Assembly: GCA_016215705.1 (NCBI GenBank)
Contig: JACRIR010000265.1
Span: 1-57,832, forward strand
Source: Candidatus Poribacteria bacterium
Lineage (GTDB): Bacteria > Abyssobacteria > SURF-5
Direction of reading: 5' to 3'
Length of the DNA: 57,832 nucleotides
Position 1 is the stretch's first letter, and each line of letters begins with the position of its first letter. Positions 45,420-57,832 of the stretch are shown piece by piece. The translations under genes were made by a program, and so were the position numbers. A model generated the notes under the pieces. That model was given only the letters and a program-made list of their open reading frames with translations. It was not told where the DNA came from and did no database searches.

Positions 45420-46001
45420 ATGTACGTTACAGAAGACATTTTGAAGCAAGTCGAGCTTAAATACGGGAGCCCTGATGTGGCTTGTTTCCACCAGCGCATG
45501 GTGTGGCCGGAATTCGAGCTACTCGTGAACAGCATGAAACATGACCGCGCGCATGACGTCACACTCTTCATTTTTTATGGTTCGGAACTGGTGACGATTC
45601 GGAAACATATGCATCCCGCAGGGGTTTTCAGAGCGCCCAGCGGGGGCTTGCGGCCCGGAGAAGACTTTGAGGAAGGGACTCTGCGCGAGGCTTATGAAGA
45701 GACGGGCCTTCAAGTTCAATTAGATAGATATATTCTGCGCGCGCATGTCACTTTCGTCTATGGCGAGCGCGAGATTCAATGGACGTCCCACGTCTTCACC
45801 GCGAAATATTTGTCGGGCGAGATGATGCCCATCGACACGAAAGAGATTGCCGAGGTAAGACAAGTCAGCATCGAGGAACTTCAGACCGGAATAAGAGACA
45901 GGTTGTTGGCGTCAGGCTCGGGAGGTCTGGCTTATAGAGTTGCGTTGACTGACAAGGTTGTTGAGTTACTTCGACAAGGGCGATTCTTGAATGTCTCCTA
46001 G
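45420..46001 (+). CDS. Nudix hydrolase
   Basis: 193 residues. A full Nudix box is present: Gly-x5-Glu-x7-REAYEETGL, within GGLRPGEDFEEGT and REAYEETGL at about 75-97. It binds magnesium and cleaves nucleoside diphosphate-linked compounds. The substrate class cannot be told from this. A preceding segment (VTIRKHMHPAGVFRAPSGGL) is beta-rich as in the family. It stands alone between the membrane genes and nuoB; a link to NADH metabolism is only suggested by its position. Confidence 0.9.
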   Translation: MYVTEDILKQVELKYGSPDVACFHQRMVWPEFELLVNSMKHDRAHDVTLFIFYGSELVTIRKHMHPAGVFRAPSGGLRPGEDFEEGTLREAYEETGLQVQLDRYILRAHVTFVYGEREIQWTSHVFTAKYLSGEMMPIDTKEIAEVRQVSIEELQTGIRDRLLASGSGGLAYRVALTDKVVELLRQGRFLNVS

Positions 46002-46066: not shown

Positions 46067-46564
46067 GTGGCAACGCCGGAAAAGCGAAACATGGACCTGA
46101 GCGACAGAATCTCCAAACAAGTTCTGACCACCAAGCTCGACGAAATTGTGAAGTGGGCCAGAAAACATTCGCTTTGGCCGATGCCTTTCGGAACGGCTTG
46201 TTGCGCGATCGAGCTTATGGCCGTCCTTGCATCCAGATACGACCTCGCCCGTTTCGGCTCCGAGGCGATCCGCTTCTCGCCGAGGCAATCCGACCTGATG
46301 ATCGTAGCCGGGCGGGTCTGCAATAAGATGATGCCTGTCCTTCAGCGGATTTATTTGCAGATGCCCGAACCCAAATGGGTTATCGCCATGGGCGCATGCG
46401 CGAGCAGCGGCGGCGTCTTTGATACATACAGCGTGATCCAGGGAATTGACAACTTCATGCCCGTTGACGTTTATATACCGGGCTGTCCGCCCCGGCCCGA
46501 AGCCATCATAGAAGCGGTTCTCATGATTCAGGAAATCATAGCGAAAGAGAGACAAGAGATATAA
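46067..46564 (+). CDS. nuoB: NADH-quinone oxidoreductase subunit B
   Basis: 165 residues (157 from the in-frame ATG at 46091). Ligands for cluster N2 are visible: CysCys in [11 protein letters not shown], Cys in GACASSGG and Cys in PGCPPRPE. It passes electrons to quinone at the top of the peripheral arm. It is the first gene of the nuo operon here; nuoA, which usually precedes it, is found between nuoE and nuoF. Confidence 0.96.
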
Positions 46565-46581
46565 CGCGGGGGCATAGCAGA

Positions 46582-47166
46582 TTGGAAGTCTACCTGACGC
46601 CCAAGTGCAGGGAAGCGCTCGCAGAGCACCAGATGCAGGCCGTGGGACGCTTGCGGGCGCGTTTTCCGGATGCAGTTCTTGAGCAGACTGAATTTCGCGG
46701 CGAAATGACGCTTGTGGTCAAGAGCGACTCGGTTTTCGACATGGCGCAATTCCTGCGAGACACGCCGGAACTCCTCTATAGGCATCTGGCCGACATAACT
46801 TGCGTTGATCATCTTCATCTCGAATCCGCTTTCGGAAGGTTCTCGGTCGTATATCTGTTCTATTCTTTCAGGTATGGCGACCGCATCCGTCTCAAGGCGT
46901 TTCTTCCGTCGGAAGACCCTCATATCGATTCCCTTGTGCCGCTGTGGCAGACTGCGAATTGGCTCGAGAGGGAAGTCTACGATATGTTCGGTGTGGTCTT
47001 CCGAAATCACCCCGACTTGCGGCGCATACTCATGCCGGAGGATTCAGTTCATTTTCCGCTTCGCAAAGACTATCCGCTGACCGGGAGAGGGGAAAGAGAA
47101 TCTTTCCCATACGTCACACGCGACGGCAGGACTATCGAGAAATCGCGTTCGCCGAGGGCGAGGTGA
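46582..47166 (+). CDS. nuoC: NADH-quinone oxidoreductase subunit C
   Basis: 194 residues with the family signature NWLEREVYDMFGVVFRNHPD and RRILMPEDSVHFPLRKDYPL. It is a peripheral arm subunit that holds the B/D/I module. Start is TTG at 46582. It is separate from nuoD, unlike the fused C-D of E. coli. nuoD begins 2 bases after it. Confidence 0.94.
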   Translation: MEVYLTPKCREALAEHQMQAVGRLRARFPDAVLEQTEFRGEMTLVVKSDSVFDMAQFLRDTPELLYRHLADITCVDHLHLESAFGRFSVVYLFYSFRYGDRIRLKAFLPSEDPHIDSLVPLWQTANWLEREVYDMFGVVFRNHPDLRRILMPEDSVHFPLRKDYPLTGRGERESFPYVTRDGRTIEKSRSPRAR

Positions 47167-47168
47167 AC

Positions 47169-48383
47169 ATGGCGGAAAAACAGACCATTGAACTGCCTGT
47201 GGCCGCTTTTCGGGCAATGCTGCTCAATTTCGGCCCGCAGCATCCGGCCACTCATGGAACACTGCGCATAAAGATGGAACTCGACGGCGAGATTATTACC
47301 AAGGCGACACCTTACATCGGATTCCTCCACAGCGGGTTCGAGAAACTGGGAGAGCATCTGGATTTCAATCAATATGTCACCGTGGCAGACCGGATGAATT
47401 ACATGTCGGCTCTCAACAACGACATCGCGTGGCATCTCGCCGTCGAAAAGCTCTTCGCCGTCGAAGTCCCGAAGCGCTGTCAGTACATCCGCGTGATTCT
47501 TGCTGAACTGAGCCGGATATCCGATCACCTTGTGTTCCTCGGCACGCATGCGCTTGACCTTGGCGCTTTTACCGCGTTTCTCTGGAGCTTCCGCGAGCGC
47601 GAGAAACTTTACGACATCTTCGAGATGATTACCGGCGGAAGAATGACCACAAGCTTTACCCGCGCCGGCGGTCTGTGGGCTGATATGCCGAAAGGCTTCG
47701 ACGACAAAGTTCTCGAGTTCTGCGCCCAATTCCCCGCACGTCTGCAAGAAATAGAAGACTTGCTCACGCGCAACCGCATCTGGATCGACAGGACCAAGGG
47801 AATCGGCGTCATCTCAGGCGAGGAAGCCGTCAGTTATGGGCTTACCGGTCCTTGTCTTCGCGCTTCGGGCGTGGTGTGGGATGTTCGCAAGGCGGAGCCA
47901 TACAGCTCATACGAGGATTTTGATTTCGAGATTCCCTATGGCGAGAATGGCGACGTGTATGACCGCTACCTGGTGCGCCTGGAAGAGATGCGGCAAAGCG
48001 TTCGAATTGCCGAGCAAGCCGTTCGGAATATGCCGTCCGGACCGGTCGACGTCGATCAATCGAAGAAGATTCGACTCCCCCCGAAACAGAAAGTCTACAC
48101 CGAAATGGAATCGCTCATCCACCATTTCGAGTTCATTATGCCGGGGAAAGGCCCGAAACTGCCGGCGGGCGAAGTCTATGTTCCGACGGAATCGCCCAAT
48201 GGCGAGTTGGGTTATTACATAGTGGGTGACGGCAAGAGCAAGAATGCGTATCGGGCGCGGACGCGTCCACCGTCATTTGTGAATTACCAGGCATTTTCGA
48301 AAATGGTCGAGGGACGCCTTGTCGCAGATGCCGTTGCCGTGCTCGGTAGCCTGAACATCATCGCGGCTGAACTCGACCGGTGA
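47169..48383 (+). CDS. nuoD: NADH-quinone oxidoreductase subunit D
   Basis: 404 residues from ATG 47169, preceded by GAGGTGA; the frame is open further upstream into nuoC but a start there is unlikely. Key parts are NFGPQHPATHGTLRIKMELD, GFLHSGFEKL, YVTVADRMNY and RPPSFVNYQAF. It forms the quinone-binding pocket with NuoB. It is descended from the large subunit of [NiFe] hydrogenases but lacks the Cys ligands. Confidence 0.97.
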   Translation: MAEKQTIELPVAAFRAMLLNFGPQHPATHGTLRIKMELDGEIITKATPYIGFLHSGFEKLGEHLDFNQYVTVADRMNYMSALNNDIAWHLAVEKLFAVEVPKRCQYIRVILAELSRISDHLVFLGTHALDLGAFTAFLWSFREREKLYDIFEMITGGRMTTSFTRAGGLWADMPKGFDDKVLEFCAQFPARLQEIEDLLTRNRIWIDRTKGIGVISGEEAVSYGLTGPCLRASGVVWDVRKAEPYSSYEDFDFEIPYGENGDVYDRYLVRLEEMRQSVRIAEQAVRNMPSGPVDVDQSKKIRLPPKQKVYTEMESLIHHFEFIMPGKGPKLPAGEVYVPTESPNGELGYYIVGDGKSKNAYRARTRPPSFVNYQAFSKMVEGRLVADAVAVLGSLNIIAAELDR

Positions 48384-48406
48384 GATGACATCGAGGAAGC
48401 GGATTC

Positions 48407-48916
48407 ATGGTCTGGCCTTCAGAAACCGAAGCAGTGAAACCTGAGAGGCAGGAACTGCCTGCAGGGCTTGTGCTGCAAATAGACGAGCTTCTCAGACACT
48501 ATCCAAACAAGCGTGCGGCCCTGATACCGGCGCTTCACAAATGTCAGGACCATTTCGGGCACATTCCCGGTGGCGTGGCGCTTGCTTTGTCCGAGCACAT
48601 GGGGTTGGCGCCCAGTTGCGTCGCAGACACGATATCTTTCTATTCCATGTTGCGGATGAAGCCGGTCGGCAAGTTCCACATCGAGGTTTGTCAGACGATT
48701 TCATGTGCGCTTCGCGGGGCCGATTCGCTCGCTGATTATCTCGTTATGAAACTCGGGATCGGGTTTGGCGAGGTCACCCGTGACGGAAAGTTCTCGCTGG
48801 GAAAAGTGGAGTGCATTGGCGCTTGCGAGCAAGCGCCCGCGATACTTATCAATAATGAGCTATACGGGAACCTGAACAAGGAGCGAATTGAAGAGATTCT
48901 AGGGGGACTGCAATAG
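48407..48916 (+). CDS. nuoE: NADH-quinone oxidoreductase subunit E
   Basis: 169 residues. Thioredoxin-like [2Fe-2S] ligands are Cys-x4-Cys in CQTISCALRG and Cys-x3-Cys in CIGACEQAP. The N-terminal helical part has YPNKRAALIPALHKCQDHFG. It works with NuoF in the NADH-oxidising module. GAGGAAG lies 7 bases before the ATG. Confidence 0.95.
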   Translation: MVWPSETEAVKPERQELPAGLVLQIDELLRHYPNKRAALIPALHKCQDHFGHIPGGVALALSEHMGLAPSCVADTISFYSMLRMKPVGKFHIEVCQTISCALRGADSLADYLVMKLGIGFGEVTRDGKFSLGKVECIGACEQAPAILINNELYGNLNKERIEEILGGLQ

Positions 48917-48946
48917 GAGACGCCGTTTTGGTACGGTGCGATATCT

Positions 48947-49312
48947 ATGCTAAGTGACTATATTCCGATCCTCGTAATGTTCGTTTTCGTGTTCGGGTTT
49001 GCCGCATTCAGCCTGATTATCACTCACATTTTCGGTCCGCGGAGGGCCGGCCGCGAAAAGCTCGAGCCCTATGAGTCGGGTATGCCTCCCCTTGGCGAAA
49101 CGCATCGGCGGACATCAGTCAAATACTATCTTTTCGCAATGTTCTTTATCATATTCGACGTTGAAGTGATTTTCCTGTATCCATGGGCGGTCATTTTCAA
49201 GAAATACGTCGCGGATACTCCATTGATACTTATGGAGATGTTTACATTCCTGATCGTGTTGATTGTCGGCCTCGTTTACGTCTGGCGCAAGGGCGGTCTC
49301 GAGTGGGAGTAA
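48947..49312 (+). CDS. nuoA: NADH-quinone oxidoreductase subunit A
   Basis: 121 residues with three membrane segments (about 7-28, 61-82, 90-110). Conserved GPRRAGREKLEPYESGMPPL and KYYLFAMFFIIFDVEVIFLY are typical of subunit A, which binds near the quinone channel. It sits between nuoE and nuoF, not at the head of the operon where nuoA is normally found. Downstream nuoF begins within 6 bases. Confidence 0.95.
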   Translation: MLSDYIPILVMFVFVFGFAAFSLIITHIFGPRRAGREKLEPYESGMPPLGETHRRTSVKYYLFAMFFIIFDVEVIFLYPWAVIFKKYVADTPLILMEMFTFLIVLIVGLVYVWRKGGLEWE

Positions 49313-49317
49313 CCTCA

Positions 49318-50613
49318 GTGGAACCGGTTCTGCTTGCGAAGCGACACATTGAAAACTCAACGGACATCAATATTGCCATCGGGGAAGGCGCTTACAAAGC
49401 GCTGCAAAAAGTCTTGACGGCGATGTCGCCGCCGCAGGTTCACAAGGAGGTCATGGATGCTGTTCTTCGCGGCCGTGGCGGCGCCGGATTTCCGGCCGGT
49501 CTCAAGTGGAAATTCCTTGACAAGAACCCGAAGAGAACGCGCTACTTATGCTGCAATGCCGATGAAAGCGAGCCGGGCACGTTCAAAGACCGGGTGATCA
49601 TGGAGACCGACCCGCACATGCTCATCGAGGGGATGATCATAGCCTGCTATGCGATTGACGCGCATGCGGGCTACATATTTCTGCGCGGCGAGTACGCCAA
49701 CTCCTTCCGTATTCTCACTAAAGCAATTGCGCAGGCCCGCGAGCACGGATTTCTCGGGGACAACGTGCTCGGCTCAGGCTTCAATGTCAACATCCACGTC
49801 CACGTAGGCGCGGGCGCTTATATTTGCGGCGAGGAATTGGCTATGCTTGAGTCACTCGGCGGCGCCCGTGGCTGGCCGAGGTTGAAGCCGCCCTATGCCG
49901 CCACTCGCGGACTTTTCTACGAGCCGACCGTTGTCAATAACGTTGAGACATTGGCTTGTGTTCCCCACATTGTCCTTCGCGGCGCCGATTGGTTCAAGGG
50001 CATGGGCAGCGAAAACAATTACGGCCCGAAGCTCTACTGCCTCAGCGGCCATGTCAACAAGCCCGGAGTCTATGAACTCCCGATGGGAACCACACTGAAG
50101 CAATTGATTGACCAAAGTGGCGGAGGGATTCCGAACGGCCGCAAACTCAAAGCCGTTCTGCCGGGAGGATCGTCATCGGCGGCGCTTACTGCAGAAGAGG
50201 TGGATGTTCCGATGGATTTCGATTCGATGTCGAAGGCCGGCAGCATGCTCGGCTCGGCCGGGATCATTGTCATGGATGATTCTACGTGCATGGTGAACGC
50301 CTGCTGGAACGTGGCCCGTTTCTATGCCCATGAATCCTGCGGGCAGTGTACGCCCTGTCGCGAAGGAACAAACTGGGTGGCTCGTATCCTGGGCCGTATC
50401 GAGCGAGGCCAGGGCGAGCCCGGCGACATCGATATGGCTCTTACAATCTGTGACAATATGCTCGGGCAGACGATCTGTGCTCTGGCCGACGGAGCGGTCT
50501 TTCCAATTCGAAGCATCATTCAGAAATTCAGGGCCGAGTTTGAGCGGCACGTCCGCGACGGCGCATGCCCGTTCGGGGCCAAGAGAAAATGGTACAGCGT
50601 GTTGCCCGAATGA
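49318..50613 (+). CDS. nuoF: NADH-quinone oxidoreductase subunit F
   Basis: 431 residues from GTG 49318, which has GGGAG 8 bases upstream; GTG 49303 is the alternative. NADH-binding GRGGAGFPAGLKW, FMN-binding NADESEPGTFKDR and GAGAYICGEE, and the N3 [4Fe-4S] ligands in ESCGQCTPCREG plus a later Cys (QTICALAD) are all present. It oxidises NADH and passes electrons to FMN and the iron-sulfur chain. Confidence 0.97.
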   Translation: MEPVLLAKRHIENSTDINIAIGEGAYKALQKVLTAMSPPQVHKEVMDAVLRGRGGAGFPAGLKWKFLDKNPKRTRYLCCNADESEPGTFKDRVIMETDPHMLIEGMIIACYAIDAHAGYIFLRGEYANSFRILTKAIAQAREHGFLGDNVLGSGFNVNIHVHVGAGAYICGEELAMLESLGGARGWPRLKPPYAATRGLFYEPTVVNNVETLACVPHIVLRGADWFKGMGSENNYGPKLYCLSGHVNKPGVYELPMGTTLKQLIDQSGGGIPNGRKLKAVLPGGSSSAALTAEEVDVPMDFDSMSKAGSMLGSAGIIVMDDSTCMVNACWNVARFYAHESCGQCTPCREGTNWVARILGRIERGQGEPGDIDMALTICDNMLGQTICALADGAVFPIRSIIQKFRAEFERHVRDGACPFGAKRKWYSVLPE

Positions 50614-50641
50614 AATTGCGCTTCATAGTGCTGTCAGGATT

Positions 50642-50733
50642 GTCATTCTGAGGAGCGAAGCGACGAAGAATCTCTCGTTTTCCTGAAAAATTTCGACCTA
50701 TAGGCGGAGATTCTTCGCTTCGCTCAGAATGAC
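50642..50733. repeat. Inverted pair of interspersed repeats between nuoF and nuoG
   Basis: GTCATTCTGAGGAGCGAAGC at 50642-50661 begins a 33-base unit ending at 50674. Its inverted, slightly shorter partner is at 50706-50733 (TTCTTCGCTTCGCTCAGAAT inside), identical to the copy at 3096-3123. The two arms can form a hairpin of about 28 pairs with a 31-base loop in the nuo transcript. The gap between nuoF and nuoG is 181 bases, the longest in the operon. Confidence 0.78.
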
Positions 50734-50756
50734 AAATGGATCGCTCGGAATGACAA

Positions 50757-50773
50757 GTGTCCCCGAACAAGCG
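50757..50773. repeat. Right-half fragment of the long palindrome family
   Basis: GTGTCCCCGAACAAGCG resembles the right arm of the copy at 8018 (GTGTCCCCGAATAAACG). It lacks a left arm. It ends just before the nuoG ribosome-binding site. Confidence 0.5.
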
Positions 50774-50794
50774 GGTTCTTCCTAGGAGTTTGCG

Positions 50795-52405
50795 ATGCCG
50801 GTCATCCGAATAGATCAGCGTGAAATCGAGGCGGACGAAGGGACCACGATCATGCAGGCGGCGGACAAGCTAGGTATCTTTATCCCCCGCTACTGCTATC
50901 ATCCCGGCCTCAGCATCGCAGGCTGCTGCCGGATATGCGGGGTCGAGGTCGAGGATTCTCCCAAGCTGCTTATGGCATGTGCAACTCCCGTCAAGGAAGG
51001 CATGGTTGTTAGAACCGACACCGAACGCGTAAAGATGGGCCAGCGCGCTGTGGAGGAATTCCTTTTGCTAAACCATCCCCTCGATTGTCCTGTTTGCGAT
51101 CAGGCGGGGGAATGCGTCCTTCAGGATTACAGTTTCACCTACGGATTCGGCGAGTCAAGGTTCCGGGAACAGAAAATCAAACAGCGAAAGAAGGACGTTG
51201 GCCGCGACTTGCTTCTGTATGCTGACCGGTGCATCATGTGCACCCGGTGCGTCCGGTTTGCGCACGAAGTTTCGGGCCACGACCAGGTGGGCGTGTTCAA
51301 TCGCGGCGCTCACACGGAGATAGGCGTCTTTCCCGGGATTCGAATCGACGACCTTCTCGCGGGCAACATAGCCGACATCTGTCCCGTAGGCGCTTTCCTG
51401 AGCAAGGACTTCTTGTTCAAGCGCCGTGTGTGGGAACTGAAGAGCACAAAGAGCGTCTGCCCCGCGTGTTCAGTCGGATGCAGCGTGCTTCTGGACCATG
51501 CCGACGGCAGAATTCATCGCCTGCGTCCTCGCCACAATCCGAACGTCAACGGCCATTGGATGTGCGACATCGGGCGCATGGACTATAAAATGGTGGGCAG
51601 CGCCGACCGCCTCAAGAAGCCCTTGGCGCGGAAAAATGGGATGCTCGAAGAAATATCGTGGAGCGACGTGATCGCTTATGCTTCGGGCCGTATCAGGCAA
51701 ATCATCACACGACACGGCGCTGACGCGCTCGCCTTTGTTATTTCTTCCGACGCGACAAACGAAGAGGCACTCACGTTCGCAAAACTTGCGGAAAAGACGG
51801 GCTCGCTGCAAAATCTCCGGTTGCTATCCGGCAAGCGCGGTGAACGGATTGAGTTTGCGGGCGGGTTCGTCATTGAGAGCGACCGTTCTCCGAACGAACA
51901 TGGAGTTCTCGACGTTCTCAAGGAATTCATGCCGCGCGAATCGCAAGAGCGTGTTACCGACCTGGGATCGCTCGCGGGTAAGCGCGGTCTATACATCTTT
52001 TGCGGCTCGCATTCTGACAGGGGATCGATTCAATTGCTGGCACGGGCCGCCGCAGCCGCTGATTTTGCGCTTGTCCATGGGAATGTTTCTTCTCCATTGA
52101 CTGAAGCGGCGACAATGGTTTTGCCGGGCGCGGCATATGCCGAGAAAGAAGGCACGTACACGAATCTGCGAGGGGTAATCCAGCGAATTCATCCTGCATT
52201 TGACCCGCCGGGTGATGCCGGTCACGATTTTGACATTGTGCTTCAGATTGCCGGGGCGATCGGAAATTCGCTTCCGTTTCAGACGGTCGCGGCGGCTTCG
52301 GCCGAGCTTGCGCGAAGACTTCGCGGCTATGTGTCGATGGAACAGACAGGCGATACCGGCTGGGTGAATCCGTACTCTCGAGTCGCGGGCGCAACGAAAG
52401 GCTGA
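50795..52405 (+). CDS. nuoG: NADH-quinone oxidoreductase subunit G (short form)
   Basis: 536 residues; E. coli NuoG is about 900. The N-terminal [2Fe-2S] domain has ligands near Cys34, Cys45, Cys48 and Cys62. Next are the N5-type ligands HPLDCPVCDQAGEC, a [4Fe-4S] group RCIMCTRCVRF with later CPVGA, and an N7-like set CPACSVGC with later WMCDIG. The remaining 270 residues are a reduced molybdopterin-oxidoreductase fold. AGGAG lies 6 bases before the ATG. The molybdopterin part is smaller than usual but a short NuoG is known in other phyla. Confidence 0.93.
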   Translation: MPVIRIDQREIEADEGTTIMQAADKLGIFIPRYCYHPGLSIAGCCRICGVEVEDSPKLLMACATPVKEGMVVRTDTERVKMGQRAVEEFLLLNHPLDCPVCDQAGECVLQDYSFTYGFGESRFREQKIKQRKKDVGRDLLLYADRCIMCTRCVRFAHEVSGHDQVGVFNRGAHTEIGVFPGIRIDDLLAGNIADICPVGAFLSKDFLFKRRVWELKSTKSVCPACSVGCSVLLDHADGRIHRLRPRHNPNVNGHWMCDIGRMDYKMVGSADRLKKPLARKNGMLEEISWSDVIAYASGRIRQIITRHGADALAFVISSDATNEEALTFAKLAEKTGSLQNLRLLSGKRGERIEFAGGFVIESDRSPNEHGVLDVLKEFMPRESQERVTDLGSLAGKRGLYIFCGSHSDRGSIQLLARAAAAADFALVHGNVSSPLTEAATMVLPGAAYAEKEGTYTNLRGVIQRIHPAFDPPGDAGHDFDIVLQIAGAIGNSLPFQTVAAASAELARRLRGYVSMEQTGDTGWVNPYSRVAGATKG

Positions 52406-52410
52406 GAACA

Positions 52411-53454
52411 GTGGCAGAGACTCTGGTGATAATCGGCGTGGCGCTCGCGAAAATAGTTGTTGTCTTCGCGGCTTTGCAGGTTACCATCATGTATTTGGTT
52501 CTTGCCGAAAGACGCATTAGCGCGTTTATCCAGGACAGGTTGGGTCCGAACCGGGTGGGGTGGGAAGGGCTCCTTCAGCCGATCGCTGACGGGTTGAAGT
52601 TTTTGTTTAAGGAGGACATCATTCCCTCACGCGCAGATAAGGTTATCTTTGTAATTGCGCCGGCGATGATTGTGCTGCCCGCGCTTATGACTTTTGCCGT
52701 TATCCCTTTCGGCGGCGTCCTTACCTTCGGGGGCATCAAGATTGATCTTCAGGTTGCCAGCATCGACATCGGACTTCTGTATGTTCTCGCAATGGCTTCC
52801 ATCAGCGTATATGGGATTATCTTCGGCTCGTGGGCGTCAGCAAACAAATATGCATTGATGGGCGGCCTCCGCTCGTGCGCGCAAATGATAAGCTATGAGA
52901 TTCCGCTCGGGTTATCGGTCATGGGAGTGCTGATGATGACCGGCACGCTCAAGCTTGAACAAGTCGTCGAGGCACAATCGACGTATGTTTGGGGAGTGAT
53001 CCCGCGTTGGAATATCATTTTTCAGCCTCTGGCGTTTCTTCTTTTTCTTACTTCGGCCATGGCGGAGAACAATCGCCTGCCATTCGATCTGCCGGAGGCC
53101 GAACAAGAGCTCGTGGCCGGATATCATACCGAATACAGCAGCGTCAAGTTCGCCATGTTTTTCATGGCCGAGTATGCGGCGATGATAACAAGTTCGGCGC
53201 TGGTCGTAATCCTGTTTCTTGGCGGATGGCTTGTGCCGGGTCTCGAAGCGCTTGGCCTGCCGCAGATTGTGAAGGAACTAGTCCAAATGGGCGCTTTTGT
53301 ATTGAAGGTGAGTTTCTTCCTTTTTCTGTATATATGGGTTCGTTGGACGTTTCCGCGTTTTCGTTACGATCAGCTTATGCGCCTGTGCTGGAAAGTGCTG
53401 TTGCCACTGGCGCTTGCAAACATATTTGTGACGGGCATTGTGATGGCGATGTAG
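52411..53454 (+). CDS. nuoH: NADH-quinone oxidoreductase subunit H
   Basis: 347 residues with eight membrane segments. Seen are ERRISAFIQDRLGPNRVGWE (start of the quinone entrance loop), SYEIPLGLSVMGV, and NRLPFDLPEAEQELVAGYHT. It links the membrane arm to the quinone chamber. GTG start at 52411, 5 bases after nuoG. Confidence 0.97.
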   Translation: MAETLVIIGVALAKIVVVFAALQVTIMYLVLAERRISAFIQDRLGPNRVGWEGLLQPIADGLKFLFKEDIIPSRADKVIFVIAPAMIVLPALMTFAVIPFGGVLTFGGIKIDLQVASIDIGLLYVLAMASISVYGIIFGSWASANKYALMGGLRSCAQMISYEIPLGLSVMGVLMMTGTLKLEQVVEAQSTYVWGVIPRWNIIFQPLAFLLFLTSAMAENNRLPFDLPEAEQELVAGYHTEYSSVKFAMFFMAEYAAMITSSALVVILFLGGWLVPGLEALGLPQIVKELVQMGAFVLKVSFFLFLYIWVRWTFPRFRYDQLMRLCWKVLLPLALANIFVTGIVMAM

Positions 53455-53480
53455 CGGAGAGTGATGAGTGATGAAATCTA

Positions 53481-53513
53481 TCGTAGGGGCGCCCCGCCGG
53501 GTCGCTCCTACGA
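53481..53513. repeat. GTAGGGGCG-type hairpin between nuoH and nuoI
   Basis: TCGTAGGGGCGCCCC (53481-53495) and GGGTCGCTCCTACGA (53499-53513) pair over 15 positions with two mismatches. It resembles the CGCGCCCCTACA part of 18308-18330. The 130-base gap contains nothing else recognisable. No T-run follows, so it is not a clear terminator. Confidence 0.75.
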
Positions 53514-53584
53514 AGAATTGCGAGGCGGCCTTGGTAGAGAGATCACGAAACAGGTGAGTGGAGCATTTGATACGGAGCTGATTC

Positions 53585-54112
53585 ATGGATGAGAAACCCG
53601 ACACCGAGGGCAAGCGGGAAGAGATCGTGAGAGAAGCTCACGAGATGAACTTTATTGATCGTCTCTACTTGCCCGCTTTGCTCAAGGGATTGGCCGACAC
53701 TTTTCGTCATTTGTTCGAGGAAAAGTTCACCATCGAGTATCCGGAACAGAAGAGGCAGGTATATCCCCGTTACCGGGGGCTCCACCGGCTGAACAAGGAC
53801 GAGCTTGGGCGCGTGAAATGCGTCGCCTGCTTCATGTGTTCCACGATCTGCCCCGCGCGCTGCATCTATATCGTGGGCGCCGAGGCGCCTTGGCCCGACC
53901 GCGAAAAGTATCCGGTGCGCTTTGATATCGACGAACTGCGATGCATCTACTGCGGGATGTGTGAGGAGGCTTGTCCTGTCGAAGCAATCGAACTGACTGA
54001 AATATACGACATGGTAGGCGCTTCGCGAAAGGACCTCATTTACAACAAGGAAATGCTTCTGGAGATTTACGACCGGACAAAAGAAAAGGGCGGCATGAAG
54101 AAATGGATTTAG
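53585..54112 (+). CDS. nuoI: NADH-quinone oxidoreductase subunit I
   Basis: 175 residues. Two [4Fe-4S] motifs (clusters N6a and N6b): Cys79/82/85/89 (CVACFMCSTICP) and Cys120/123/126/130 (CIYCGMCEEACP). It relays electrons to NuoB. The last 10 bases overlap nuoJ. The first 20 residues are charged and longer than in E. coli. Confidence 0.96.
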   Translation: MDEKPDTEGKREEIVREAHEMNFIDRLYLPALLKGLADTFRHLFEEKFTIEYPEQKRQVYPRYRGLHRLNKDELGRVKCVACFMCSTICPARCIYIVGAEAPWPDREKYPVRFDIDELRCIYCGMCEEACPVEAIELTEIYDMVGASRKDLIYNKEMLLEIYDRTKEKGGMKKWI

Positions 54113-54759
54113 TGGCTTATCTTGCCTTCGGAACGCTGGCTGCGCTGACGGCGTATCGGGCGGCAAAATCGAGAGCCATGCCCCATGTGGCCATTTGGGG
54201 CGCGGCCTCCGGAGCGTTTCTGATTGCAGCGGTGTGGGGGGCGTTTCGAGGCATAAGCAGCTTCCACGACTTCCTTTTCTATCTCGTGGCGCTGGTATGC
54301 GTTGTCTCCGCCGTCAGAGTTATCAGTCAACCGAATCCCGTCCATAGCGCCGTGTGGCTCGTCACCGTTTTCTTGTGTGTCTCAGTCCTTTTCATTTTGA
54401 GACGGGCAGAGTTCCTTGCTGCGGTTCAGGTCATCATTTATGCCGGCGCCATAATGGTGCTATATGTCTTTATCATAATTTTTGTCGACGTGGAGGTTAC
54501 GGGCGAAGAACCGGCGCCGCTGTGGATGACAGCGAGCGCCCTCGGACTTGCCGCGGCTCTTCTTGTGGCCCTTGTGCCGGTCGCCCTCAGCCTGCGGCCG
54601 GTTCAGTCGGCCGGAGTGATCCGTGCCGGATATGGTACGACCGAGAGAATAGCTGAGGCCGTTTTCTTTAATGCGACAGCGCCGTTTGAAGCCGTGTCGC
54701 TGGTTCTGCTCGTGGCGCTCATTGGCGCCGTCCTCATCGGAAAGGCAGAGAAGGAGTAA
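54103..54759 (+). CDS. nuoJ: NADH-quinone oxidoreductase subunit J
   Basis: 218 residues with five membrane segments. RVISQPNPVHSAVWLVTVFL and FLAAVQVIIYAGAIMVLYVF are the NuoJ signatures. It is part of the proton channel next to NuoA, NuoH and NuoK. It overlaps nuoI by 10 bases. Confidence 0.95.
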   Translation: MDLVAYLAFGTLAALTAYRAAKSRAMPHVAIWGAASGAFLIAAVWGAFRGISSFHDFLFYLVALVCVVSAVRVISQPNPVHSAVWLVTVFLCVSVLFILRRAEFLAAVQVIIYAGAIMVLYVFIIIFVDVEVTGEEPAPLWMTASALGLAAALLVALVPVALSLRPVQSAGVIRAGYGTTERIAEAVFFNATAPFEAVSLVLLVALIGAVLIGKAEKE

Positions 54760-54761
54760 CC

Positions 54762-55064
54762 GTGGCGACAGCTTCTGAATACATGGTTCTCAGTTCCGTC
54801 CTGTTCGCAGTCGGGTTTGTCGGATTCACTTTGCGCCGCAACATCCTCGTGATGTTCATGTCGGCGGAACTGATGCTTAACTCAGCCAACCTGAATCTTA
54901 TCGCATATTCGACGGAGTGGGGGAATCCCACCGGCCAGACCTTCGCCCTGTTTGTGATTGCGGTGGCCGCGGCGGAGGCCGCCGTCGGGTTGGCAATACT
55001 GATGCTGCTTTTCCGGGCGCGGGCGACCGTGAGCGCCGCCGACTGGAGGAGGTTAAAAGGGTGA
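54762..55064 (+). CDS. nuoK: NADH-quinone oxidoreductase subunit K
   Basis: 100 residues, the exact family length, with three membrane segments. RRNILVMFMSAELMLNSANL contains the conserved membrane Glu. AVAAAEAAVGLAILMLLFR is the third helix with the second conserved Glu. GTG start; the stop overlaps the GTG of nuoN. In most operons nuoL and nuoM come next; here nuoN follows directly. Confidence 0.95.
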   Translation: MATASEYMVLSSVLFAVGFVGFTLRRNILVMFMSAELMLNSANLNLIAYSTEWGNPTGQTFALFVIAVAAAEAAVGLAILMLLFRARATVSAADWRRLKG

Positions 55065-56551
55065 ACCTCTTGAGCGGTGATTTGAAATTGGTTCTGCCTG
55101 AAATCTTTATCTCGGTGACGGCGATGGGCATCCTGATTCTCGGAACTTTTGTGCGTGAACGGGGAAGAACATGGCTCGCATGTGTCACGCTTTCCGCCCT
55201 CGCCGTCACAGGCTATTATTTGATGACTCTTCGTTCGAACCCGTTTCATCCGGCCTATTCGAGTATGTATGCGCACGACGGCATGGCGCTCGTGTTCAAG
55301 ATGTTGTTCATCGTGGTCGGCATTCTCGCCGTCCTCGTCTCATACGATTTCCTTCGCACGCGCGGCATTCCCTGCGCTGAATTCTTCGCGCTCATATTAT
55401 TCTCCACTGTCGGAATGATGCTGGTTGCTTCCGCGTACGATTTCATGCTGCTCTTCGTCGGATTGGAGCTCTCTTCGCTGGCGACATATATACTCGTAGG
55501 CCTGACGAAGAAAGACCTCTGGTCGAACGAAGCGGCCATAAAATATTTTCTGCTCAGCATTTTTGCCAGCGCGATTCTCCTGTTCGGGATATCCATCGTT
55601 TACGCCGCAACAGGCACGACCAATTTTGGCGAAATCGCTTCGCGGGGGAGCGATCTCACGACGCGTCAACCGCTCGCAGCCGTTGTCGCGCTGGTTTTTC
55701 TCGTCGCGGCATTCGGGTTCAAGATAACAGCGGTTCCGTTTCACATGTACGCGCCGGACGTCTATCAAGGCGCTCCAACGCCAGTGACAATCTTCCTGGC
55801 GGTTGGCCCGAAGGCTGCGGCATTTGCCGGCCTGATTCGTGTTCTTGGCGCAGTTCACGCGATGAGTTCGGACTGGCTGATGCTGGTGTCGGCGCTTTCC
55901 TTCCTGACAATGACCGTGGGGAACGTGGGGGCAGTTTTGCAGACAAATGTCAAAAGGATGCTCGCATACTCGAGCATAGCGCACGCCGGATATGCGCTGA
56001 TCGGGGTAGCCTCGATCGCGGTCGATGATCGCGCCGGCGGCGTTTTCCCGAGCAGTACGGCGAGCGTGATATTTTACCTTGTGGCCTACACCATCATGAA
56101 TGTCGGCGCATTCAGCCTGCTCATGTACATGAGGCGTGACAAGGGCTTCGGTGAGGACCTGGCCGATTTCTCGGGTCTGGCGAGGCGAAGGCCCGTCGTG
56201 GCGGCAGCGATGTTGATATTCCTCTTGTCGCTCGCCGGCATTCCGCCCTCCATCGGCTTCCTCGGCAAGTTCTATATTTTCGCGACGGCGGTCCGCTCAG
56301 GATTGTACTGGCTGGCTGTCGCGGGCGTGTTGAACGCAGTCGTGTCACTTTTCTACTACGCGCGAATAGTCGTATATATGTTCATGAAGAAACAGGAACG
56401 CGATGTTTCGGACGTGAGGTCGTTCGCATTAAACCTCGCGCTCGGAGCGTCCGCTGTGGCAACCGTCGTCCTGGGAATCTTTCCTCAAACCATTCTTGAT
56501 GTTATTGCGCGGGCGACTTCAAATATTTTCACGGGAGGGATCATTCAATGA
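55061..56551 (+). CDS. nuoN: NADH-quinone oxidoreductase subunit N
   Basis: 496 residues from GTG 55061, which overlaps nuoK and has GGAGG upstream; the frame is open earlier inside nuoK. About 14 membrane segments are expected. AVPFHMYAPDVYQGAPTPVT followed by GPKAAAFAGLIRV is typical of NuoN and not NuoL or NuoM, and the C-terminal helix pattern fits ND2. It is the only antiporter-like subunit in the window. Confidence 0.96.
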   Translation: MNLLSGDLKLVLPEIFISVTAMGILILGTFVRERGRTWLACVTLSALAVTGYYLMTLRSNPFHPAYSSMYAHDGMALVFKMLFIVVGILAVLVSYDFLRTRGIPCAEFFALILFSTVGMMLVASAYDFMLLFVGLELSSLATYILVGLTKKDLWSNEAAIKYFLLSIFASAILLFGISIVYAATGTTNFGEIASRGSDLTTRQPLAAVVALVFLVAAFGFKITAVPFHMYAPDVYQGAPTPVTIFLAVGPKAAAFAGLIRVLGAVHAMSSDWLMLVSALSFLTMTVGNVGAVLQTNVKRMLAYSSIAHAGYALIGVASIAVDDRAGGVFPSSTASVIFYLVAYTIMNVGAFSLLMYMRRDKGFGEDLADFSGLARRRPVVAAAMLIFLLSLAGIPPSIGFLGKFYIFATAVRSGLYWLAVAGVLNAVVSLFYYARIVVYMFMKKQERDVSDVRSFALNLALGASAVATVVLGIFPQTILDVIARATSNIFTGGIIQ

Positions 56552-57285
56552 AATGCCCTGAGTGTGGAATCGAAAACAATGAGTCCCAGAAATACTGCGG
56601 CAATTGCGGTGGGCCGCTGGGTGGCGCGAGCATCAGCGATTTGTTCGAGGCGGCCTTCAAGAGCGAGGCCCGAGGCGACCTCAGCGGCGCGCTCGAGGCA
56701 TATGACCGCTTGCTCGAAAAGAGGCCGAAAAGTCAGGAAATCCTATTCAAGATGGGAATGGTTTGCTACGACCTGGGTCATCTCGACGATGCGATCGTGA
56801 AATTCCGGAAGGTCATCGAGTTCAACCCAAGGTTCATTTACGCTCACTTTCGATTGGGACTCTGCCTTTACCATAAATGTATGATTGAGGAAGCGATTAA
56901 GTCCTATTCCGACGCGCTTTCCACCGCGCCCGACTTCGTGCCGGCGCTCCTCCAACTTGGCATCGCCAACTTCCACATTGGGCGCCTCGAAAAGGCCATC
57001 GGGGCATTCCGAAAGGTCTCCGAATCAAGCTGCTCATACACACTCGCTCACTATTATCTCGGGCTCGCATACGAACGCATGCGGCGGACGGACGAGGCGA
57101 TTCAGCAATTCACCCTTGTATCAAAGGAGAACCCCAAAGACCCTTCCACCCACTATCATCTCGGCATTCTCTACAAGCGCAAGTTCATGAGAGACGCCGC
57201 CATTGGCGAGTTTATGCGCGCTCATCAACTCGACCCCTCTGACGAGGCCACCATCGAAGAGCTGAGCTCTCTGCAGCAGAAGTAG
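56548..57285 (+). CDS. Zinc-ribbon TPR protein
   Basis: 245 residues. The N-terminal zinc ribbon has Cys3/Cys6 and Cys17/Cys20 (CPECGIEN, YCGNCGGPL). From about residue 30 there are six TPR-like units, for example MVCYDLGHLDDAIVKFRKVI and FHIGRLEKAIGAFRKV. No membrane segment is seen, so it is probably a cytoplasmic adaptor. ATGA overlap with nuoN means it is translated with complex I genes and may help assembly or regulation, but that is a guess from position. Confidence 0.85.
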   Translation: MKCPECGIENNESQKYCGNCGGPLGGASISDLFEAAFKSEARGDLSGALEAYDRLLEKRPKSQEILFKMGMVCYDLGHLDDAIVKFRKVIEFNPRFIYAHFRLGLCLYHKCMIEEAIKSYSDALSTAPDFVPALLQLGIANFHIGRLEKAIGAFRKVSESSCSYTLAHYYLGLAYERMRRTDEAIQQFTLVSKENPKDPSTHYHLGILYKRKFMRDAAIGEFMRAHQLDPSDEATIEELSSLQQK

Positions 57286-57492: not shown

Positions 57493-57521
57493 TTGACAAG
57501 ATAGGCAAGGGATGGTATAAT
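57493..57521 (+). promoter_or_regulatory. Consensus sigma-70 promoter of the arsR-like gene
   Basis: TTGACA (57493-57498), 17-base spacer and TATAAT (57516-57521) are a perfect consensus match. The start would be near 57528, about 39 bases before the ATG at 57567. An operator for the ArsR-type protein is expected nearby but no clear palindrome was found. Confidence 0.85.
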
Positions 57522-57566: not shown

Positions 57567-57832
57567 ATGAGCCAGGACCAAGTTGTTAAGATTCTCAAGG
57601 CGCTTGCCAATGAAAACCGGCTGAGAATCCTTGAGGCTATCAGGAATTACCAAGTCCACACCAACTGTTGCCCCGAGGGACTAGAATCGCTAAACGCGAA
57701 GGTAGGAAGCGGTTGCTGCGCCGACGAAGTCTGTTGCGTGGATGAAATCGGGAAGCAATTCGAGATGGCTCAGTCCACTGTATCTCAGCATTTGAAGGAG
57801 CTTCACAACGCGGGCTTACTCGAGCGTCACAA
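57567..57832 (+). CDS. ArsR-family regulator with Cys-rich insert (partial, runs off the right edge)
   Basis: The first 88 residues are visible. KILKALANENRLRILEAI is the ArsR/SmtB N-terminal helix pair and MAQSTVSQHLKELHNAGLLE is the recognition helix. Between them residues 33-57 form an insert with three Cys-Cys pairs, Cys34-35, Cys50-51 and Cys56-57, in NCCPEG, GCCADEVCC. Such Cys are likely metal or metalloid ligands or a redox sensor. It is probably an autorepressor; nearby downstream genes, outside the window, might be efflux or detoxification genes. Confidence 0.8.
   Translation, partial: MSQDQVVKILKALANENRLRILEAIRNYQVHTNCCPEGLESLNAKVGSGCCADEVCCVDEIGKQFEMAQSTVSQHLKELHNAGLLERH

Follow-up and report, generated by a model that had tools for sequence, protein, structure and literature searches.

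The window (the whole 57,832-nucleotide stretch of DNA analysed) contains, between positions 46067 and 56551 of the + strand, twelve nuo genes arranged as B C D E A F G H I J K N, and neither nuoL nor nuoM. The reading preferred here, at a probability just short of one half (about 0.47), is that the operon specifies an NADH-linked complex I whose distal pumps are supplied in trans by the single L/M pair encoded on another contig, C54, of the same genome.

The gene order, assigned by open reading frames and NCBIfam models, agreed with that given in the first-pass annotation, which had also placed nuoA between E and F. This displaced nuoA was located at 48947-49312, and no second case of such a placement was seen among the other operons examined. 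It had further been claimed that nuoK overlaps nuoN directly and that nuoL and nuoM are absent from their usual place; the overlap was measured at 4 bp (GTGA), and the space between nuoJ and nuoN is of the size of nuoK only. Neighbouring genes also overlap at A/F (4 bp) and I/J (10 bp), and few-base overlaps of this kind are the mark of a coupled operon, as the run is predicted to be. The K/N overlap is therefore an ordinary junction of coupled genes rather than a broken gene, and, given the overlaps of neighbours, neither a chance deletion nor a misassembly is likely at the K/N join.

The 5' neighbour of nuoB is a NUDIX hydrolase gene (45420..46001, + strand, PF00293), and no L, M or A was found upstream of nuoB. 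At the other end nuoN overlaps by 4 bp the final gene of the run, encoding a zinc-ribbon/TPR protein (56548..57285, + strand, Pfam TPR and Zn_Ribbon_1). A gap separates the latter from the unit of an ArsR-like regulator, which starts at 57567 and has its own sigma-70 type promoter recognized in the sequence (TTGACA-17-TATAAT, 12/12, 57493..57521, + strand). This unit with its putative promoter is the 3' boundary of the nuo run, the operon being by this gene layout complete inside the window on both sides; a location of L and M just beyond the contig end was ruled out on these grounds. No further PF00361 antiporter gene besides nuoN was found in the window. The gap between nuoF and nuoG (50614-50794), lying inside the operon, reads CHSERSEES...RRFAPQNDN on the reverse strand, which we take to be a common dispersed palindromic repeat.

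The peripheral arm (B, C, D, E, F, G and I) is complete with its cofactor motifs, as in canonical NDH-1. The Q-module gene nuoB (46067..46564; NCBIfam PRK06411/TIGR01957 above cut-off) encodes the subunit of cluster N2 and retains the conserved Cys45, 46, 111 and 140; nuoC (46582..47166) scored above the TIGR01961 cut-off and nuoD (47169..48383) reached 522.6 bits with TIGR01962 (cut-off 459). The N module is represented by nuoE (48407..48916; 2Fe-2S, TIGR01958 above cut-off, 4 Cys retained), nuoF (49309..50613; FMN/NADH, TIGR01959 604 bits, cut-off 558) and nuoG (50795..52405). NuoG is a short form of 536 aa, found also in Neomarinimicrobiota and Poribacteria; its score was 16 bits below the TIGR01973 cut-off, and it contains the Pfam domains Fer2_4, NADH-G_4Fe-4S_3, Fer4_Nqo3 and Molybdop_Fe4S4 with the conserved Cys and His retained. 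The product of nuoI (53585..54112; TIGR01971 above cut-off), carrying two 4Fe-4S clusters, keeps its 8 Cys, and every highly conserved iron-sulphur Cys is retained across B, E, F, G and I. Complex I variants lacking the NADH module have been described (PMC12361115); the presence of E, F and G shows that the window operon does not encode an 11-subunit complex I-like enzyme of that kind.

The conserved charged residues of the membrane subunits A, H, J and K are likewise retained: D71 and E73 in NuoA (NCBIfam NuoA models, PF00507 above cut-off), 26/26 conserved charged or Tyr columns in NuoH (52411..53454; PF00146, 411 bits), and Glu36 and Glu72 in NuoK (54762..55064; assigned by homology to the C54 and other NuoK). 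NuoN (55061..56551), the sole antiporter-like subunit of the operon, scored 435 bits with TIGR01770 (cut-off 332.6), which identifies it as NuoN rather than L, M or an Mrp subunit, and it keeps 15/15 strongly conserved charged residues, including E136, K221, K251 and K403. Four other conserved positions are changed, in D and F. NuoD residue 139 is Trp (LWSFREREK), being Tyr in all other NuoD compared, and NuoF position 184 is Gly, being Glu in 97% of the NuoF compared. NuoJ (54103..54759; PF00499) has an N-terminal extension of approximately 50 residues with two hydrophobic stretches; a role of this extension as a structural stand-in for NuoL was considered and rejected, since L019 and G355 have similar extensions in addition to L and M. 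With nearly all of the tested cofactor and proton-path residues intact, the operon is predicted to encode an NADH:quinone oxidoreductase that is functional on paper. Its content corresponds exactly to the N, Q and PP modules (the last comprising A, H, J, K and N), and exactly the PD module is missing, that is L and M, which are ND5 and ND4 in the module scheme of the Yarrowia enzyme (Drose et al., PMC3160329).

One explanation offered in the first-pass annotation was that L and M are encoded elsewhere. A pair was indeed found, but it belongs to a second complex I that has its own G, J, K and N and its own A, B, C, D, H and I. Five antiporter-like genes (PF00361) are present in the genome, namely nuoN of the window, L, M and N on contig C54, and one gene on contig C215. 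The only nuoL/nuoM pair in the 5.47 Mb assembly (270 contigs, completeness 92%, approximately 8% missing) is that on C54, where the gene run consists of an F-fusion, G, J, K, L, M and N, followed by ATP synthase genes. Contig C45 carries A B C D H I, and the C54 and C45 clusters together look, by gene content, like a second complex I. Since the C54 L and M lie inside this second complex I, they cannot simply be taken for the window operon's own pair in another place. Of the refuting finding named in the first-pass annotation, an L and M elsewhere in the genome and co-expressed, which would make the case a mere rearrangement, the first half is thus borne out. The C54-type cluster is syntenic in two other family members, G001 and G002, each of which has one NuoA on a separate contig that may mark a C45-type cluster. 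A further nuo operon in G001 is unrelated and complete, L and M included. The window-type operon was detected in neither G001 nor G002.

Several features of these loci were recorded on the side. The C54 NuoF-like protein (L006 16262-18223) retains just one part of NuoF, that of the 4Fe-4S cluster, in fusion with Fer4_20 and a pyridine nucleotide-disulphide oxidoreductase part (GltD-like), and has no NADH/FMN domain of the usual type. The C54 NuoM (L006 8597-10531) ends in a long C-terminal tail rich in His, Pro, Gly and Met. The antiporter-like gene of C215 belongs to a hydrogenase-4-like remnant (L007 3551-7168) with HyfI-, HycE- and HyfF-like genes, beside which no NuoH-like gene was found; on visual inspection, the Ni-Fe cysteine pairs expected of a HycE-like protein seem to be missing from that of the remnant.

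In the preferred reading, electrons would flow in the window complex from NADH through FMN and the FeS clusters to quinone, and the E-channel (H, A, J and K) would drive N. The membrane arm would be completed by the C54 L and M, one L/M pair docking onto two different N subunits, and each complex would need its own J, K and N. Docking of one pair onto two N subunits is feasible because the distal subunits make no contact with H or A. We infer that the window complex binds the C54 L and M via its own NuoN and that both loci are expressed jointly. In favour of sharing, the assembly has only one L/M pair, it adjoins the ATP synthase operon, and this arrangement is kept in both family members. There are also precedents. 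Cyanobacterial NDH-1 carries isoform-specific NdhD/NdhF at the distal end (PMC6981117), multiple L/M copies provide a precedent for exchangeable distal subunits (PMC8235220), and E. coli complex I reassembles in vitro with membrane subunits supplied in trans (PMC13073174). A Nitrospira complex I cluster lacks nuoH, E and F (PMC6606698).

Of the two halves of the window NuoN, the one facing K has diverged to an unusual degree (rank 4 of 62). Residues 246-450, which we take from general complex I structure to be the half that should face M, ranked 25-40 of 62 in conservation and 34 of 70 in hydrophobicity, both normal. A decayed or lipid-adapted M-facing half was therefore rejected, the opposite having been seen, in a weak test that compared whole halves rather than interface residues placed on a structure. 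A normal M-facing half together with a diverged K-facing half fits an N that would still dock to M and would have adapted to a different heel. On the other side, conservation of the C-terminal half of NuoN may reflect its own proton channel only, and the L and M of this genome showed no extra constraint or slower evolution on their branch, as would be expected if the pair served two complexes.

The same half of NuoN bears on the other explanation offered earlier, a shortened membrane arm. According to it, the operon would encode a naturally short twelve-subunit complex I with N as the only antiporter-like pump, transporting approximately 2 H+ per NADH and working beside the full-length complex I in the same cell; such weaker coupling would be suited to a quinone of low potential or to a high membrane potential. 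The gene content, with N, Q and PP and without PD, matches such an enzyme exactly, the catalytic and proton-path residues are kept, and the Yarrowia nb8m complex lacking ND4 and ND5 is stable and active with 1.8-2.1 H+/2e- (PMC3160329). Against this reading, the M-facing half of NuoN, which would then face lipid, is neither decayed nor more hydrophobic than usual. No published operon with an NADH module and only NuoN was found in the literature searched, in which few subscription papers were covered. The short arm is regarded as the chief competitor of the shared pair and as the less probable of the two.

Relative to the rest of the operon, J, K and N have diverged most, which could also speak for a short arm. 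The divergence of J/K/N relative to the core was the highest of 27 operons, but barely above that of Verrucomicrobia, and it held rank 1 in 106/200 bootstraps. The acceleration is thus real but common to Verrucomicrobia, and it was rejected as a sign of lost constraint. In trees of A-I the window operon groups with Poribacteria, Neomarinimicrobiota and G106 (support 100 in one tree and 99 in another), and its core stands apart from the second complex of the family (AU p 1e-9 for A+H and 0.0009 for B+C+D+I). In a J+K+N tree of 22 taxa the window joined the C54-type J, K and N of the family (99/98; AU p 0.001-0.002), a grouping that would favour sharing; with more taxa the support was 86/70, and holding J+K+N with the relatives of the core was not rejected (AU p 0.119). 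The grouping is thus not firm under wider sampling, and the weakening of this signal counts against sharing. A chimeric origin, with the core from one lineage and J-K-N from the second complex of the host, is not claimed for this reason; that the host's second complex may have been the source of the window operon's pump tail is kept as a lead.

The rarity of the J-K-N join was estimated by NuoN and NuoJ searches of 386 genomes, which gave 94 J-N pairs. J and N were separated by at least 3.4 kb in 90 of them, so the short spacing in the window is not a matter of chance; the remaining 4/94 had 305-580 bp, with room for K alone. Two of these, in G096 and G234 (one genus), have the J-K-N join but carry L and M upstream of A in the same gene run, an arrangement in which the pair is, from the gene order, moved only. 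G088 has J-K-N on contig C263 without L/M, and its L and M occur on two further contigs, of which C60 has them in an E-L-M run. Among the four joins, the window operon alone is without its own L/M in the assembly. Relocation accompanied by a J-K-N join does therefore occur, and a dedicated second nuoL/nuoM pair could lie in the unassembled part of this genome, which is fragmented and incomplete to the extent given above. Only approximately 8% of the genome is missing, however, and both ends of the operon lie within the window, which argues against a pair immediately past the contig end; relocation alone is considered improbable. An artefact, whether a misassembly deleting L/M or a contaminating contig, could be imagined in a fragmented draft genome but is scarcely credible, since the K/N join is a perfect 4-bp overlap, the enolase encoded on the window contig is 84-85% identical to that of both family members and single-copy in each genome, and the GC and tetranucleotide composition of the contig match those of the other contigs, the enolase identity and the composition leading to rejection of contamination.

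The closest relative of the window operon is the canonical 14-subunit NDH-1 of the Neomarinimicrobiota/Poribacteria type, with which it shares the short NuoG, a NuoH 57-60% identical and the common grouping of A-I. Operons of that type begin with A and place L and M between K and N, whereas the window operon shows neither trait; canonical NDH-1 has nuoL and nuoM in its cluster and the window cluster has neither. Antiporter-like subunits vary naturally in number, as shown by the 2M complex I and the Manganitrophaceae Complex_I_3, with four and five pumps, respectively (PMC9040806), whereas the window operon encodes one. Complexes with scattered genes are also described, as for Nitrospina NUO-2 (PMC3578206). 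The second NuoM and lengthened NuoL that characterize the 2M complex I are not found in the window operon, which lacks M and L altogether.

Higher numbers of such genes were also observed in the course of this work. The locus L217 172-11109 (G087:C96), found also in G227:C9, has the order A B C D H I J K and, after these, six antiporter-like genes, encoding MrpD/NuoL-like proteins of 499, 527, 517 and 893 aa, then M (506 aa) and N (485 aa); the published maximum found was five pumps (PMC9040806). The 893-aa protein contains approximately four copies of a repeat of about 25 residues, GGMWEVFGRADTNYDSMLGEAIQKQ, before its C-terminal helix. In the Neomarinimicrobiota loci L010, L011, L012 and L015 the operon ends in L M N and an extra M-N pair immediately precedes nuoA, giving five antiporter-like genes in the gene row.

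There is continuing debate over the share of the four protons per NADH owed to the distal L/M module, and the mutants used have been criticised as distorted enzymes. In the Yarrowia nb8m subcomplex, as in the window operon, ND1, 2, 3, 6 and 4L are present and ND4 and ND5 missing, but nb8m was made in the laboratory from an enzyme that has ND4/ND5 in its normal state, whereas in the window operon it is the genes that are absent. If the short arm were true, a natural operon stopping at NuoN would be an undistorted test of the L/M contribution. If L and M are shared, the distal pumps would be an exchangeable module serving two different cores in one cell. The distal L/M-type subunits of cyanobacterial NDH-1 (NdhD/NdhF) are likewise a separable, exchangeable module, but there one core without an NADH module is combined with several L/M pairs, whereas the sharing proposed here would join two cores to a single L/M pair.
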